The notes under the pieces are model-generated. The model was given only the letters and a program-made list of their open reading frames with translations, ran no database searches and was not told where the DNA came from. Of a stretch of 64,000 nucleotides of DNA, positions 43,606 to 49,824 are shown piece by piece (position 1 is the first letter of the stretch; every line of letters starts with the position of its first letter). Source of the stretch: Solimonas sp. (GTDB lineage: Bacteria; Pseudomonadota; Gammaproteobacteria; Nevskiales; Nevskiaceae). The stretch spans positions 124,001-188,000 of the forward strand of contig JASBRP010000011.1 of the NCBI GenBank assembly GCA_030149365.1, read 5' to 3'. Position numbers and translations under genes: made by a program.

Positions 43606-43632
43606 TAAAGGTTTGTCGGAAAGCGCCGTTAA
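43606..43632 (+). promoter_or_regulatory. Sigma28 promoter of fliC
   Basis: TAAAGGTT-N11-GCCGTTAA upstream of flagellin. Confidence 0.88.
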
Positions 43633-43708
43633 GGGCCTCAGTAGCGGCAAAGAGCTGCGAAGGGCCGGAAACAACGTCGCCGGCAACATCCAACCCCAGG
43701 AGAAAGCC

Positions 43709-44863
43709 ATGCAAGGTATCAACACCAACGTGATGTCTCTGAATGCCCAGCGCAATCTGAACTCGTCACAGTCTTCCCTTTCCACCTCGATCCAGCGCCT
43801 GTCCTCGGGCCTGCGCATCAACAGTGCCAAGGACGACGCCGCCGGCCTCGCGATCAGCGAGCGCTTCACCAGCCAGATCAAGGGCCTGAACCAGGCGCAG
43901 CGCAATGCCAACGACGGCATCTCGCTGGCGCAGACCGCCGAAGGCGCGCTGGGCCAGGTCACCAACAACCTGCAGCGCATCCGCGAGCTGGCCGTGCAGT
44001 CCGCCAACGCCACCAACTCCACCACCGACCGCGCCGCCCTGCAGACCGAAGCCTCGCAGCTGCTGAGCGAAATCGACCGCGTCGCTAACCAGACCTCGTT
44101 CAACGGCGTCAAGCTGCTCGACGGCAGCTTCAGCTCCGCCGTGTTCCAGGTGGGCGCCAACGCCGGTGAAACCATCAGCGTCTCCGGCCTGGTCGACGCC
44201 AACGTCGCCGCGCTGGGTTCCGTCACCGCCGCTGCCGGCCAGTCCAGCGCCGTCTCGGGCATCAGCGCCCTGGGCGCCGCCGCTGCCGGTACCCTGACGA
44301 TCAACGGCACCGACATCAGCGCCGGTATCGGCGCCGCCGGTACCTCCTCGCAGCGTGTGGGCCAGGTGGTGGACGCGATCAACAACGCCGCCAGCACCAC
44401 CGGCGTCAACGCGGCCTACGACTCGGCCACCGGTCGCATCAACCTGTCCAGCGCCGGCAACATCGTGGTCGGCGGCTCGGATGACGGCACCGCCACCGGC
44501 TTCAACGTCGCCGGCAACGACGGCGACGCCACGGCCACCACCACCACCGGCCTGTCGGGTCTGAGCATCGCCAGCTACGCCGGCGCCTCGCTCGCCATCC
44601 AGCAGATGGACAGCGCGCTGTCGCAGGTGAACTCGGCTCGCGCCACCATCGGTGCGGTGCAGAACCGCTTCGAGTCGGTGGTTGCCAACCTCGCCACGAC
44701 CTCCGAGAACCTGTCGGCTGCCCGCAGCCGCATCCAGGACACGGACTTCGCGGCGGAAACGGCGAACCTGACCCGCTCGCAGATCCTGCAGCAGGCCGGT
44801 ACCGCGATGCTGGCCCAGGCCAACTCGGCGCCGAACAACGTCCTCAGCCTGCTGCGCGGCTAA
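43709..44863 (+). CDS. fliC: Flagellin
   Basis: [53 protein letters not shown]; conserved C-terminus [29 protein letters not shown]. Confidence 0.97.
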
Positions 44864-44943: not shown

Positions 44944-45321
44944 ATGAATACAGACATCTCAGCGGTAGCGGCAGTGGCAGCCTCCAAGAGGGGCGAGGGC
45001 CACCGCGCTGCCGTTTCCGCGTTTGCGTTGCCGGCTGCCGCGCCCGCTACGCCCACGCCGCCGCCCGCTACGGCAGAAGCCTTGCAGGCGCCATCGGCGG
45101 AACACCTGCAGGAAGTCATCAGCCAGATCGAACGTTACCTGGAGTCCAGCCGCACCGGCCTGGAGTTCCGCGTGGACCGGGATCTCAACCAGGTGATCGT
45201 GTCGGTGGTGGACCCCCGCGACGGCACGGTATTGCGACAGATGCCCAGCGAAGAGGCCCTGCGCATCGCCCGCGCCATGGCCGATGAGGGCGACGGCGGT
45301 TTGCTGGACGCCCTGGCCTGA
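44944..45321 (+). CDS. flaG: Flagellar protein FlaG
   Basis: LEFRVDRDLNQVIVSVVDPRDGTVLRQMPSEEALRIARAM. Confidence 0.9.
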   Translation: MNTDISAVAAVAASKRGEGHRAAVSAFALPAAAPATPTPPPATAEALQAPSAEHLQEVISQIERYLESSRTGLEFRVDRDLNQVIVSVVDPRDGTVLRQMPSEEALRIARAMADEGDGGLLDALA

Positions 45322-45354: not shown

Positions 45355-46683
45355 ATGGCCACCAGTTCCATCAATGCTTCCAGCTTCAGCTCCGGGCTCG
45401 ACGTCGTCAGCCTGGTGTCGCAGCTCGTTGCCGTGGATCGCGCCAAGCCGGACGCCCGCATCGCCGCGGCGCAGTCCAAGACCCAGACCCGCCTGTCGGC
45501 GCTGGGCGTGATGAAGTCCGCCCTGTCCAACCTGCAGACCACCGCCAAGACCCTGGTTGGCGGCGGCGCAGTGGCGACACCGGCAGTGAAGTCCTCGCGG
45601 GAAGACCTGTTCACCGCCACCACCGCCCCCGGCGCCGCTCGCGGCAGCTTCGCGGTGGAGGTGGTGTCGCTGGCGCAGGCCAGCAAGCTGGTTTCCGGCC
45701 CCGTGGCCAGCGCCACCACCAGCCTCGGTGCCGGCGACGTCGACATCACGGTGGGCGACAAGAGTTTCAAGGTCACGCTCGGCAACACCGACAACAGCCT
45801 CGCCGCGTTGCGTGACGCCATCAACAAGGCCACCGACAACCCCGGCGTCACCGCGTCCCTGGTGACCGAGTCCGGCGGTGTGCGCCTGCTGCTCACCGGC
45901 AACCAGACCGGTGCCGGCCAGGCGGTGAGCGTCAACTCCTCGCTGATCTCGCTCAACCAGACCCAGGCCGCCGCCGACGCCCACGTGAAGGTGGAAGGCT
46001 TCGACGTCTACAGCGCCAGCAACACCGTCACCGGCGCGCTGGACGGCGTCACGCTGAACCTGGTCAAGGCGGAGCCCGGCGCCACCGGCACGCTGGCGCT
46101 GAGCACCGACAACAGCGCCTCCGCCAAGGCGGTGCAGGACTTCGTCACCAAGTACAACCAGGTGTTGACCACCATCAACAACCTGACCAAGTACGATGCC
46201 GCCACCAAGACCGCCTCGACGCTGACCGGCGACAGCACCGTGCGCCAGGCCGCCGCCGAGCTGCGCTCCATCATGAGCGGCTCGGCCCCGGGCGGAACCT
46301 ACAGCTACCTCACGCAGCTGGGCATCAAGACCGGATCCGACGGCCTGCTGAGCGTGGACAGCGCCAAGCTCAACGAGGCCATCGCCAAGGACTCCGGCAG
46401 CATCGCTCGCATGTTCGGCGGCGACGACGGCTACGCCACCAAGATGAGCAAGAGCATCGACGCCATGCTCGCCGACAACGCCGGCCTCGACGCGCAGACC
46501 GACACCCTGCAGGCGCGGCTCAAGGACATCGAGAAGCAGAAGGACGCCCTGGACCGGCGCATGACGCAGGTGGAAGCGCGCTACACCGCGCAGTTCACCG
46601 CGCTGGACACGCTGATGACGCGCATGAGCAGCACCAGCAACTACCTCACGCAGCAGCTCGCGGCGATCGCGAACAACAACTAA
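45355..46683 (+). CDS. fliD: Flagellar hook-associated (cap) protein FliD
   Basis: SGLDVVSLVSQLVAVDRAKPDARI; C-terminal ARLKDIEKQKDALDRRMTQVEARYTAQFTALDTLMTRMSSTSNYLTQQLAAI. Confidence 0.95.
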   Translation: MATSSINASSFSSGLDVVSLVSQLVAVDRAKPDARIAAAQSKTQTRLSALGVMKSALSNLQTTAKTLVGGGAVATPAVKSSREDLFTATTAPGAARGSFAVEVVSLAQASKLVSGPVASATTSLGAGDVDITVGDKSFKVTLGNTDNSLAALRDAINKATDNPGVTASLVTESGGVRLLLTGNQTGAGQAVSVNSSLISLNQTQAAADAHVKVEGFDVYSASNTVTGALDGVTLNLVKAEPGATGTLALSTDNSASAKAVQDFVTKYNQVLTTINNLTKYDAATKTASTLTGDSTVRQAAAELRSIMSGSAPGGTYSYLTQLGIKTGSDGLLSVDSAKLNEAIAKDSGSIARMFGGDDGYATKMSKSIDAMLADNAGLDAQTDTLQARLKDIEKQKDALDRRMTQVEARYTAQFTALDTLMTRMSSTSNYLTQQLAAIANNN

Positions 46684-46716
46684 CGCGCTGCCCCTTCATG
46701 AGGGAGTGATCTTTTC

Positions 46717-46740
46717 GTAGGAGCGGCTGTCAGCCGCGAA
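46717..46740. repeat. Palindromic repeat (family E)
   Basis: GTAGGAGCGGCTGTCAGCCGCGAA; matches a repeat type I recognise from gammaproteobacterial intergenic regions. Confidence 0.6.
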
Positions 46741-46808
46741 CAAAGCTCATGGCGACCACGGCGTTCACGGCCAACGGCTCCAAGAAGCTGGCAGCTCTGA
46801 TTTAGTTG

Positions 46809-46902
46809 CCGTTCGCCCTGAGCCTGTCGAAGGGTGGGCGGCAACTGATTGAAGGACCTGGCGGGAAGTCCGCCCATGCTTCGACAGGCTCAGCACGAAC
46901 GG
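46809..46902. repeat. Paired REP-like inverted repeat (family A)
   Basis: CCGTTCGCCCTGAGCCTGTCGAAGG...GCTTCGACAGGCTCAGCACGAACGG, between fliD and gdx. Confidence 0.9.
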
Positions 46903-46919
46903 ACTTCTTCCGAGCTCCC

Positions 46920-47234
46920 TCAATGGGCCAGCTTCAACCCGATCACACCCGCCAGGATCAACGCCACGCTGACCAGCCGCGCCGCGTTGGCCGGCTCGTT
47001 CAGCAGCACGATACCCAGGATCACCGTACCGGCGGCACCGATCCCCACCCACACCGCATACGCCGTGCCCACCGGCAGCGTGCGCATGGCCAGGCCCAGC
47101 AGGCCCAGGCTGATCGCCATGGCGGCCACGGTGAGCACGGTGGGAAGGGGACGGGTGAAACCCTCGGTGTACTTCAGGCCGATAGCCCAGCCGATCTCGA
47201 ACAGGCCGGCCAACACCAGTAAAAGCCAGGACAT
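46920..47234 (-). CDS. gdx: Guanidinium exporter (SMR family, SugE/Gdx)
   Basis: [28 protein letters not shown]...[50 protein letters not shown]. Confidence 0.93.
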
Positions 47235-47251
47235 GATGACGCTCCGCAAAG

Positions 47252-47298
47252 CGGGGTCGTCCCCGGGTAAACCGACAAAGCGACGGGGTCGTCCCCGT
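47252..47298 (-). promoter_or_regulatory. Guanidine-II (mini-ykkC) riboswitch
   Basis: Minus strand: ACGGGG-ACGA-CCCCGT, 17-nt linker, CGGGG-ACGA-CCCCG, then GGAG SD and gdx ATG; two GC stems each with ACGR tetraloop. Confidence 0.93.
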
Positions 47299-47357
47299 AT
47301 CGGTGATCGGCCGGTTGGACCGGCCGTGCGCAGGGGAGTTCCTCTGCATTCCGAGGC

Positions 47358-47384
47358 TCAAGTCTAAGCCATTGCGGCCGATAA
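47358..47384 (+). promoter_or_regulatory. Sigma28 promoter of fliS
   Basis: TCAAGTCT-N11-GCCGATAA, perfect -10. Confidence 0.82.
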
Positions 47385-47413
47385 GAGTCTGGACGACAAC
47401 AGGAGTTTCTCCC

Positions 47414-47824
47414 ATGCCCGCCCTGCAATCCGGCGCTCTCCGGCAGTACCAGAACACCGCGGTGATCGACGCGGCCAGCGCCGACATTCCGCCGCAGCAG
47501 CTGATCGCCATGCTGCTGTCGGGCGCGCTGGAGCGGCTCAACACCGCACGCGGCTGCATCCTCGGCGGTGACCTGGTGCGCAAGGCGCCGCTGATCGCCT
47601 CCGCCAGCGGCATCATCGAGCACCTGCGCCTGTGCCTGGACCACCAGGCAGGCGGCGAGATCGCCCGCAATCTTGACGCCCTATACGACTACATGGGCCG
47701 CCGCCTGCTGCGCGCCAACCTCGACAACGACGCCGCCGGCATCGACGAAGTGGCCGGCCTGCTGCGCACCCTCAAGGCCGCCTGGGACGACATCGGCCGC
47801 CCGGGCCCGCGCCCGGTGCGTTGA
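47414..47824 (+). CDS. fliS: Flagellar export chaperone FliS
   Basis: ALRQYQNTAVIDAASADIPPQQLIAMLLSGALERLNTARG...LDALYDYMGRRLLRANLDND. Confidence 0.93.
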   Translation: MPALQSGALRQYQNTAVIDAASADIPPQQLIAMLLSGALERLNTARGCILGGDLVRKAPLIASASGIIEHLRLCLDHQAGGEIARNLDALYDYMGRRLLRANLDNDAAGIDEVAGLLRTLKAAWDDIGRPGPRPVR

Positions 47825-47888
47825 GCGGCGTGACTGGCCTTCTGGCACAGGGACTGCAGGGTCCGGTGGTACCGCCAGAGTTCCGCAC

Positions 47889-48437
47889 ATGAGCAACCCC
47901 ACCTCCCTGGACCAGCAACTGGGCTACCGCGACACCCTGCCGCTGGGCTGGGTGCCGCTGGCCACCCCGCCGCCGCCCGAGCAGCTGCAGCAACTGCAGG
48001 AGAACAACCTGCGCGTGCTGGCCGTGGTCGCCGCCCTGGAAGAGCGCCACTCCTCCCGCGGCGAGAGTGACGAGCGGGTGGAGCAGGAGCTGGACCGCAT
48101 CCACCAGAAGCTGGACATGCTGCTGGTGCTGTTCGGCCAGTTCCTGCGACGCATGGACCCCTCCGCCCCGCCGCGCCCGGTGCGCCTCACCTCCGCCGGC
48201 CTCGGCTGGGAGGGCGGCAGCGCCCTGGAGGGCTACGGCCTGCTGTCGGTGATGCTGCACCCCTGCATGCCCGAGGCCTTTACCTGGCCCGCCCACGCCG
48301 TCAACACCGGTGCCCAGGGCGAGGCCCGCTTCGAGCCCTTGGGAGAGGCCCTGGAGGCCGCCCTGGAGAAGCATGTCTTCCTCCACCACCGCCGCTCAGT
48401 CGCCGTCTCCCGACCGCCTGCCGCCCGGACCGCGTAG
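47889..48437 (+). CDS. Atypical PilZ-like protein with N-terminal helical region
   Basis: Helical ERVEQELDRIHQKLDMLLVLFGQFLRRM followed by PRPVRLTSAGLGWEGGSALEGYGLLSVMLHPCMPEAF; position after fliS. Confidence 0.6.
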   Translation: MSNPTSLDQQLGYRDTLPLGWVPLATPPPPEQLQQLQENNLRVLAVVAALEERHSSRGESDERVEQELDRIHQKLDMLLVLFGQFLRRMDPSAPPRPVRLTSAGLGWEGGSALEGYGLLSVMLHPCMPEAFTWPAHAVNTGAQGEARFEPLGEALEAALEKHVFLHHRRSVAVSRPPAARTA

Positions 48438-48491
48438 GGCGCCCCCCGACGGGGGTAGTATCTGGCCCAGATTCACTGGAGGAGACCCGGG

Positions 48492-49130
48492 ATGCGGCTG
48501 ATACTCGCAGAACCGCAGACGCTGGTCCGCGCAGGGCTGGCCCGCCTGCTGGAATTGCACGCGGGCGCCGAAATCGTCGGCGAGGCCGACGACGGCCAGC
48601 AACTGCTGGAGCTGGCCGCCCGCCTGCGCCCCGACATGATCGTCAGCGAGCTGGCCCTGGGCCGCATGAGCGGCCTGGAACTGCTGTCGCAGCTGCGCCG
48701 CCACTATCCCGAGATCGCCGTGCTGATGATCTCCGCCCAATTAGATAGCCACTCCGTCCGCACGGCGCTGAAGCTCGGCGCCGCCGGCTTCCTCGGCAAG
48801 AACGCCGAGCCCAAGGAACTGCAGCTGGCCCTGCAGGCCGTGCAGAAGGGGCAGGTTTACCTCAGCCCCGGCATAGCCCACCTCGCCTTCGAGCGCCGCA
48901 ACGCCTCACAGCGCGCCGAAGACCACGTAGCGCTGACCCCGCGCCAGAAGCAGGTGCTGCAACTCATCGCCCGCGGCCGCTCCACCAAGGAGATCGCATC
49001 CCTGATGGGCGTGAGCATCAAGACCGTGGAAACGCATCGCGCCCGCATGATGCAGTCGCTGGGGCTTTACGGCACCAATGCGCTGATGCGCTATGCCATT
49101 CGCCTCGGCATGGATAGCGGCACGCTGTAG
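48492..49130 (+). CDS. NarL/FixJ-type response regulator with degenerate receiver
   Basis: C-terminal LuxR HTH LTPRQKQVLQLIARGRSTKEIASLMGVSIKTVETHRARMMQSL; receiver MRLILAEPQ...MIVSELALGRMSGLELL. Confidence 0.88.
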   Translation: MRLILAEPQTLVRAGLARLLELHAGAEIVGEADDGQQLLELAARLRPDMIVSELALGRMSGLELLSQLRRHYPEIAVLMISAQLDSHSVRTALKLGAAGFLGKNAEPKELQLALQAVQKGQVYLSPGIAHLAFERRNASQRAEDHVALTPRQKQVLQLIARGRSTKEIASLMGVSIKTVETHRARMMQSLGLYGTNALMRYAIRLGMDSGTL

Positions 49131-49138
49131 TTCTTGTC

Positions 49139-49178
49139 TCCCTTTCCCTGCTTCCGGGGAGAGGGCAGGGGTGAGGGG
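49139..49178. repeat. Degenerate palindromic repeat (family C)
   Basis: CTCCCTTTCCCTGCTTCCGGGGAGAGGGCAGGGGTGAGG. Confidence 0.5.
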
Positions 49179-49300
49179 GGAGTATCCGCTTTGCTGCCCA
49201 GCGGCCCGCCTTGCCATCGCTTCGCCATCGCCGCAGTATTCCTCTCATACGCCACCTGACGTATGCAGGACGGGCTTGTCCTGCCTTACGCGATCGGGGG

Positions 49301-49358
49301 GCCAATGACCCGCCCTACTGCACTCGTATTCGCGGAAGGCGGGTAATGCCGGCCCTAC
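49301..49358 (-). repeat. Repeat family D, left copy
   Basis: Reverse complement GTAGGGCCGGCATTACCCGCCTTCCGCG...GTAGGGCGGGTCATTGGC; similar to 49917-49976 on opposite strand. Confidence 0.65.
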
Positions 49359-49360
49359 TC

Positions 49361-49429
49361 GCGAACCATCGCTTTAAGCCAAGCTGGCAATCCTTCAGCT
49401 TGCCCATTGACGTAAGCGGGGCGTTATAT
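49361..49429 (+). other. attC-like structure (integron recombination site candidate)
   Basis: AAC-N6-TTTAAGCC; CGCTT/AAGCG; CAAGCTG/CAGCTTG; ends GGGGCGTTATAT immediately before an ORF start. R'' box not convincing. Confidence 0.3.
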
Positions 49430-49431
49430 CT

Positions 49432-49824
49432 ATGGAAATAGTGGCTCTTCCCTTTTCCGAAGCATTTGAATGGTCAGATGCCGCTTCCATTACCGAACTT
49501 ACGTTTGGTATGAGTGGGCTTAGGCTTGTTGTATCTGCGCCGCTTGGAAGCGATGCTTTTGTTGAGATTTACTTCCCTGGAGCCAATGCTTTCCAGACCT
49601 TGCAAAACTGCGATCACTTGGCGTACTGGGGTGACAAGGCGTTCATGACCAAGCACCTCATTTACCAGATGGTCAAAGGTGGCTGGCGTGATCGAGTCGG
49701 AGATCACTACATGCAGGTCTTAAACGTAAATCGCGAGAGGCAATCGGAGTGGCTGGTCGTAGGCGGTGAGCACTGTGTGTCAGTGGTTTCGGGCAGCGAG
49801 CCTATGGTCCGGTCATTCACATGA
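49432..49824 (+). CDS. Hypothetical protein (130 aa), low-GC
   Basis: Intact ORF with ATG, base composition visibly more AT-rich than neighbours; no recognised domain. Confidence 0.6.
   Translation: MEIVALPFSEAFEWSDAASITELTFGMSGLRLVVSAPLGSDAFVEIYFPGANAFQTLQNCDHLAYWGDKAFMTKHLIYQMVKGGWRDRVGDHYMQVLNVNRERQSEWLVVGGEHCVSVVSGSEPMVRSFT

Follow-up and report, generated by a model that had tools for sequence, protein, structure and literature searches.

The response regulator FsnR of Stenotrophomonas maltophilia is an orphan regulator that activates flagellar promoters (PMC5498567, PMC9600515). The kinase RavS phosphorylates it on Asp53, and the D53A substitution strongly lowers its activity; c-di-GMP binds to its helix-turn-helix (HTH) domain through Arg157 and inhibits the protein (PMC9600515). 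In Xanthomonas oryzae the gene order is fliD-fliS-fliTX-flgZ(PilZ)-response regulator-rpoN2, and the fliS-fliTX-flgZ operon is up-regulated by RpoN2/FleQ via FliA (PMC5550985). Response regulators with pseudo-receivers are also already known as a kind, and there are precedents among them for phosphate-independent dimerization and for control by synthesis, but how they turn active or inactive has been described as largely unknown (PMC12632262). In the literature that we searched, we found no paper joining Solimonas, flagella, and a response regulator, and no description of a clade-wide form of FsnR that lacks the published switches and has only an acid at residue 53.

We analyzed a 64,000-nucleotide stretch of a Solimonas sp. 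contig (the window, to which unprefixed coordinates refer). An earlier note on this DNA had pointed out a LuxR-type regulator with Glu in place of the phospho-acceptor Asp.

Identity of the Regulator

The earlier note placed the regulator directly downstream of fliS and a PilZ-like gene, with no adjacent histidine kinase. The order fliC-flaG-fliD-fliS-tPilZ-response regulator (Table 1) bears this out, and we found no histidine kinase gene beside the regulator or in the part of its orthologs' neighborhoods that was examined. Judged by reciprocal best hit, tree, and synteny, the protein is the Solimonas ortholog of FsnR, an identity that the earlier note had missed. When S. maltophilia FsnR (locus L087) was compared with the Solimonas genome, the top match was this gene (45%, E 1e-46), and the second-best match was a 36% paralog. 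A tree that included paralogs separated the syntenic regulators, together with their intact relatives, from paralogs that are paired with kinases (support 98/92). The L087 regulator, the syntenic counterpart from S. maltophilia IAM 12423, carries D53, R153, R157, and R158, matching published FsnR, with a small mismatch at residue 154 (Glu vs. Gln154).

The common gene block is fliD-fliS-(fliT)-tPilZ-response regulator-rpoN2-REC-fleQ, and most of the relatives examined have rpoN2, a stand-alone receiver gene, and fleQ after the regulator. The rpoN2-receiver-fleQ half lies on another contig in Solimonas. In genus g8, rpoN2 still accompanies the regulator, and fliS is elsewhere. The regulator was present in 43 of the 47 family genomes with fliS and in 1 of the 11 without it (Fisher p = 2e-7; 58 genomes), and its presence thus tracks flagella.

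Table 1. Features of the Solimonas flagellar region, in window coordinates
Feature	Position	Strand	Remarks
fliC flagellin	43613..44863	+	ORF; true start probably internal
flaG	44944..45321	+	
fliD filament cap	45355..46683	+	
Predicted sigma-28 (FliA)-like promoter, TCAAG-N14-GCCGATA	47358..47383	+	Consensus match, before fliS
fliS flagellin export chaperone	47414..47824	+	Probable first gene of the fliS-tPilZ-response regulator operon
tPilZ (atypical PilZ, PF16823, 64 bits)	47889..48437	+	FlgZ-like
FsnR ortholog, response regulator	48492..49130	+	ATG start, 212 aa; pseudo-receiver, linker, LuxR/GerE HTH
Glu7-Pro8 codons	48510..48515	+	In place of the metal-binding Asp pair (DD1, DD2)
Glu53 codon (GAG)	48648..48650	+	Phospho-acceptor position, equivalent to FsnR Asp53
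Ser81 codon	48732..48734	+	Conserved Thr/Ser position kept
Lys103 codon	48798..48800	+	Conserved Lys kept
Gln157 codon	48960..48962	+	Aligned with c-di-GMP-binding Arg157 of FsnR

The Receiver Pocket

The protein consists of a pseudo-receiver (residues 1-118), a linker (119-145), and a LuxR/GerE HTH (146-202), with Pfam scores of 80 bits for the receiver and 57 bits for the GerE/LuxR HTH. It aligns end to end, and ungapped in the pocket, with LiaR, VraR, and NarL and with 81 relatives, and none of these alignments places an Asp at its active site. The pocket reads E7-P8-Q9 where D-D-H is canonical and E53 for the phospho-Asp, with S81, F100, and K103; the Glu at the acceptor position, the altered acidic pocket, the conserved Lys, and the HTH that the earlier note had read by eye are therefore all present. 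As a recognizable receiver (PF00072 type) with a non-Asp acceptor and a nonacidic DD2, it belongs to the aspartate-less receivers, or pseudo-receivers. The pocket residues are identical in three other Solimonas genomes (protein identity 96-100%). The protein is 100% identical (rounded) in Solimonas sp. SE-A11 (L031) and 97% identical in S. fluminis, and E7-P8-E53 is also found in S. terrae and other g11 genomes and in a Nevskiales MAG. Because the same residues recur in other genomes, the changes do not reflect sequencing error or chance. The Solimonas protein therefore shares the clade and the flagellar neighborhood of FsnR but lacks its Asp53, its acidic pair, and its Arg157, and it is an FsnR ortholog by descent without the phospho-switch of FsnR.

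A PDB fold search with the regulator returned LiaR-BeF3, VraR, and RcsB, but this result is uninformative about the active state, because domain orientation governs how full-length structures superpose. The AlphaFold monomer did not tell the active and inactive states apart.

Operon Context

The intergenic gaps within fliS-tPilZ-response regulator are 64 and 54 bases (the latter between tPilZ and the regulator), and the sigma-28-like site begins 56 bases ahead of fliS. Comparable sites precede fliS in many relatives of either pocket type. On the basis of the gaps and the consensus promoter, the three genes are probably co-transcribed from the predicted FliA-like promoter. A sigma-70 scan of positions 46600-49450 found nothing above chance. 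We considered the near-palindrome ATCTGG-C-CCAGAT upstream of the start as an autoregulatory site and rejected it, as it is broken in L002 and L003 and absent from L004. In many Xanthomonadaceae loci (L055-L110; by eye), a TTGGCG-N(15-18)-GGCTAAGGTG-like block lies ~60 bases before the fsnR start and is perhaps a promoter of fsnR's own; no such block was seen by eye in the Solimonas clade.

The region has two further features. A SugE/Gdx-type SMR transporter gene (46920-47234, minus strand), with its own guanidine-II (mini-ykkC) riboswitch (47252-47300, minus strand), is inserted between fliD and fliS, an insertion restricted to the genus among the loci compared. Downstream of the regulator is a 130-aa ORF (49432-49824, plus strand) that has no Pfam match and is missing from the matching place in the nearest strain.

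Evolution of the Pocket

The history of the pocket was read from a maximum-likelihood tree of 67 sequences, inferred after the pocket columns had been excluded. The tree places a single loss of the DD2 Asp at the base of a clade of 38 rows (support 100/98) made up of Solimonas, Sinimarinibacterium, Fontimonas, Panacagrimonas, Nevskia, Stagnimonas, and Stenotrophobium. Across the 29 intact orthologs (Xanthomonas, Stenotrophomonas, Pseudoxanthomonas, Luteimonas, g14, g4, g7, and three betaproteobacterial outgroup rows), which span a tree length of 9.3, DD1, DD2, the acceptor, and the Lys never change; in the DD2-lost rows, with a length of 9.9, they change 4, 10, 5, and 4 times, respectively. 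In the same genomes, the stand-alone receiver has retained both the Asp pair and the acceptor Asp, and the erosion of the pocket is therefore specific to the FsnR ortholog. Across Xanthomonadaceae and Nevskiales (L037:8331-8711, L151, L153, L072:8321-8701, and others), the gene for this receiver (~127 aa) lies between rpoN2 and fleQ; the protein could be a partner of FsnR or FleQ.

Within the DD2-lost clade, DD1 is acidic in every member, and residue 53 is Glu in 30 rows and Asp in 8, with no other residue. At least five switches between these two residues took place at position 53, and columns that combine at least five changes with just two states number 3 of 125. Pro occupies DD2 in 21 members, all with Glu53. 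A two-state likelihood model puts Glu at the clade base and implies about four to five later returns to Asp, although this direction is less sure than the count because resolution at the clade base is weak and a single rate is assumed. Near the pocket, H9 shifted to Q, M82 to A/S, H83 to R/Q, and (in 37 of the 38 members) A106 to E/D. Ser/Thr81 and/or Lys103 was lost in eight members, seven of which have Glu53.

Stagnimonas members (L010, L011, and L041) read D-E..D..S/T..K; they have possibly regained the acidic pair and the Asp and could still be phosphorylated. The ortholog at L140:7019-7648 (G065), whose branch is long, has diverged strongly: it reads DS..D, with Ala and Gln at the Thr and Lys positions, respectively. 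It nevertheless still adjoins fliS and tPilZ.

Constraint on the Receiver

Between Solimonas species, dN/dS of the regulator was 0.02-0.06, and the HTH had zero amino-acid changes relative to S. fluminis and G002 (loci L003 and L004). Within the receiver, dN/dS was 0.02-0.11. On these values, the regulator is a pseudo-receiver protein under strong purifying selection. The rate ratio of receiver to HTH was 1.9 in the DD2-lost clade vs. 1.2 in the intact orthologs, and receiver changes per unit tree length were 0.75 vs. 0.58. The receiver of the DD2-lost clade is relaxed, not decaying. Simple decay, with residue 53 in neutral drift, would fit the somewhat higher rate of receiver change, but it is at odds with the low receiver dN/dS, the restriction of residue 53 to Asp or Glu, and the co-occurrence of the regulator with flagella, and we give it almost no weight.

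Phosphorylation and c-di-GMP as Inputs

RavS has the domain order PAS-PAS-HisKA_3-HATPase. We found no full-length homolog of it in the Solimonas genome. A longer homolog was present in 1 of the 58 family genomes, that of a species with an intact FsnR pocket, and matches in the other genomes were confined to the common kinase core or to PAS pieces; RavR had a full-length match only in G021. Because full-length RavS was also not found in two genomes with intact FsnR (G017 and G060), its absence supports, but does not prove, a link to the loss of the pocket.

The earlier note had suggested that the regulator may work independently of phosphorylation. On sequence grounds this is well supported, because both the acceptor Asp and DD2 are gone, a single old loss of DD2 is shared by 38 orthologs, and RavS has no full-length homolog. 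Residual phosphorylation, either through a weak pocket in which Glu7 is the sole acid of the pair or on Glu53 itself, would be in line with the acidic DD1 of all 38 members and with reports that substitutions at the DD, T, or K positions do not always abolish phosphorylation (PMC12632262). However, the acceptor Asp is missing in addition to DD2, and the one longer homolog of the known kinase accompanies an intact pocket, which makes this reading very improbable.

As for c-di-GMP, 29 of the 38 clade members have Gln, Ser, Thr, or Glu at residue 157. This loss is a weaker point, because residue 157 varies among the intact orthologs too.

The Role of Residue 53

The earlier note proposed that Glu53 mimics phospho-Asp. 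In its full form this reading would have Glu53 reach Ser81 and Lys103 as phospho-Asp does, locking the regulator on. Ser81, Phe100, and Lys103 are all present in the Solimonas protein, Glu predominates in the clade (including all members with Pro at DD2), and maximum likelihood puts it at the clade base. Glu is also the commonest replacement in aspartate-less receivers (26%; PMC4395418), and D-to-E substitutions activate several regulators (PMC4395418, PMC12632262). In FsnR, however, neither D53E nor D53R nor D53K mimicked phosphorylation in cells (PMC9600515); D53E was assayed in a strain that lacked the phosphodiesterase SisP and in a protein that lacked the compensating changes of the DD2-lost clade. 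Moreover, eight clade members have Asp53 without a canonical pocket, the Ser/Thr81-Lys103 route is broken in seven Glu53 members, and without DD2 there is no metal to help place the Glu53 group. The proposal is weakened by these observations, and we consider a true phosphomimic rather unlikely. The observation in the earlier note is thus confirmed, and its interpretation is partly supported.

Alternatively, the receiver may have been re-purposed for another input, such as a partner or ligand (for example, the stand-alone receiver of rpoN2-fleQ, the tPilZ protein, or c-di-GMP). Such direct control is known for several pseudo-receivers (PMC12632262), the receiver is still constrained, and the new near-pocket residues (Q9, A/S82, R/Q83, and E/D106) are now largely kept. 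The regulator also keeps tPilZ as a neighbor and, outside its own genus, rpoN2-REC-fleQ. Against this, the c-di-GMP residue is not Arg in most of the clade, Solimonas included, and the Solimonas stand-alone receiver is encoded on a different contig; we regard this alternative as unlikely.

We favor, with a probability of roughly one half, an FsnR ortholog without a phospho-switch that needs a charge at residue 53 and whose activity is set mainly by FliA-driven synthesis. The role of residue 53 in this model is preferred because D53E fails to mimic phosphorylation in FsnR and because the clade accepts Asp and Glu alike. In the ancestor of the clade, loss of the metal-binding Asp of DD2 would have ended phosphorylation of the receiver by a kinase. 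The domain would have been kept as a folding and dimerization module, so that the protein could dimerize without phosphate and bind and activate flagellar promoters, its presumed DNA targets, in the unphosphorylated state. The acidic residue at 53, whether Glu or Asp, would provide a structural charge, most likely paired with Lys103, and not a specific mimic of the phosphate. Output would be set mainly by the amount of regulator made, as the product of the last gene of the putative FliA-driven operon, and this synthesis could create positive feedback late in flagellar assembly. Since D53A strongly weakens FsnR, a mere loss of phosphorylation should weaken the Solimonas protein as well, unless other changes compensate.

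More broadly, and more tentatively, the clade may have stripped the FsnR switch of both its inputs (RavS phosphorylation and c-di-GMP), leaving a regulator that is controlled by dosage in a FliA feedback loop and in which only charge matters at residue 53. The switch-bearing FsnR, with its published D53A, D53E, and R157A mutants, and the switchless form are orthologous and share an operon context, and the tree shows which change came first: the DD2 Asp disappeared a single time, and Asp and Glu interchanged afterwards. The family makes the common idea that Glu equals permanent phosphorylation directly testable by simple point mutants.

Comparison with Known Systems

The closest described protein, FsnR (S. 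maltophilia DP16_RS11195; syntenic X. oryzae PXO_06170), shares with the Solimonas regulator its numbering (53, 103, and 157), domain order, and flagellar synteny. FsnR has DD..D53..T..K and Arg157, is phosphorylated by RavS, and is inhibited by c-di-GMP, whereas the Solimonas protein has EP..E53 and Gln157, in a genome with no full-length RavS. VpsT and CsgD, atypical LuxR-type regulators, likewise combine a LuxR HTH with an atypical receiver. The c-di-GMP motif of VpsT-like receivers is W-[FLM]-[TS]-R, and this motif is absent from the sequence of the Solimonas receiver. The aspartate-less or pseudo-receiver proteins ChxR, GlnR, RamR, HP1043, and FleQ also have a receiver fold without key catalytic residues and function without phosphorylation, and ChxR, like the Solimonas regulator, has Glu at the acceptor position. 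Several of these proteins have OmpR-type or enhancer-binding outputs, whereas the Solimonas protein is a NarL-type flagellar regulator, and its intact sister lineages allow the loss to be dated.
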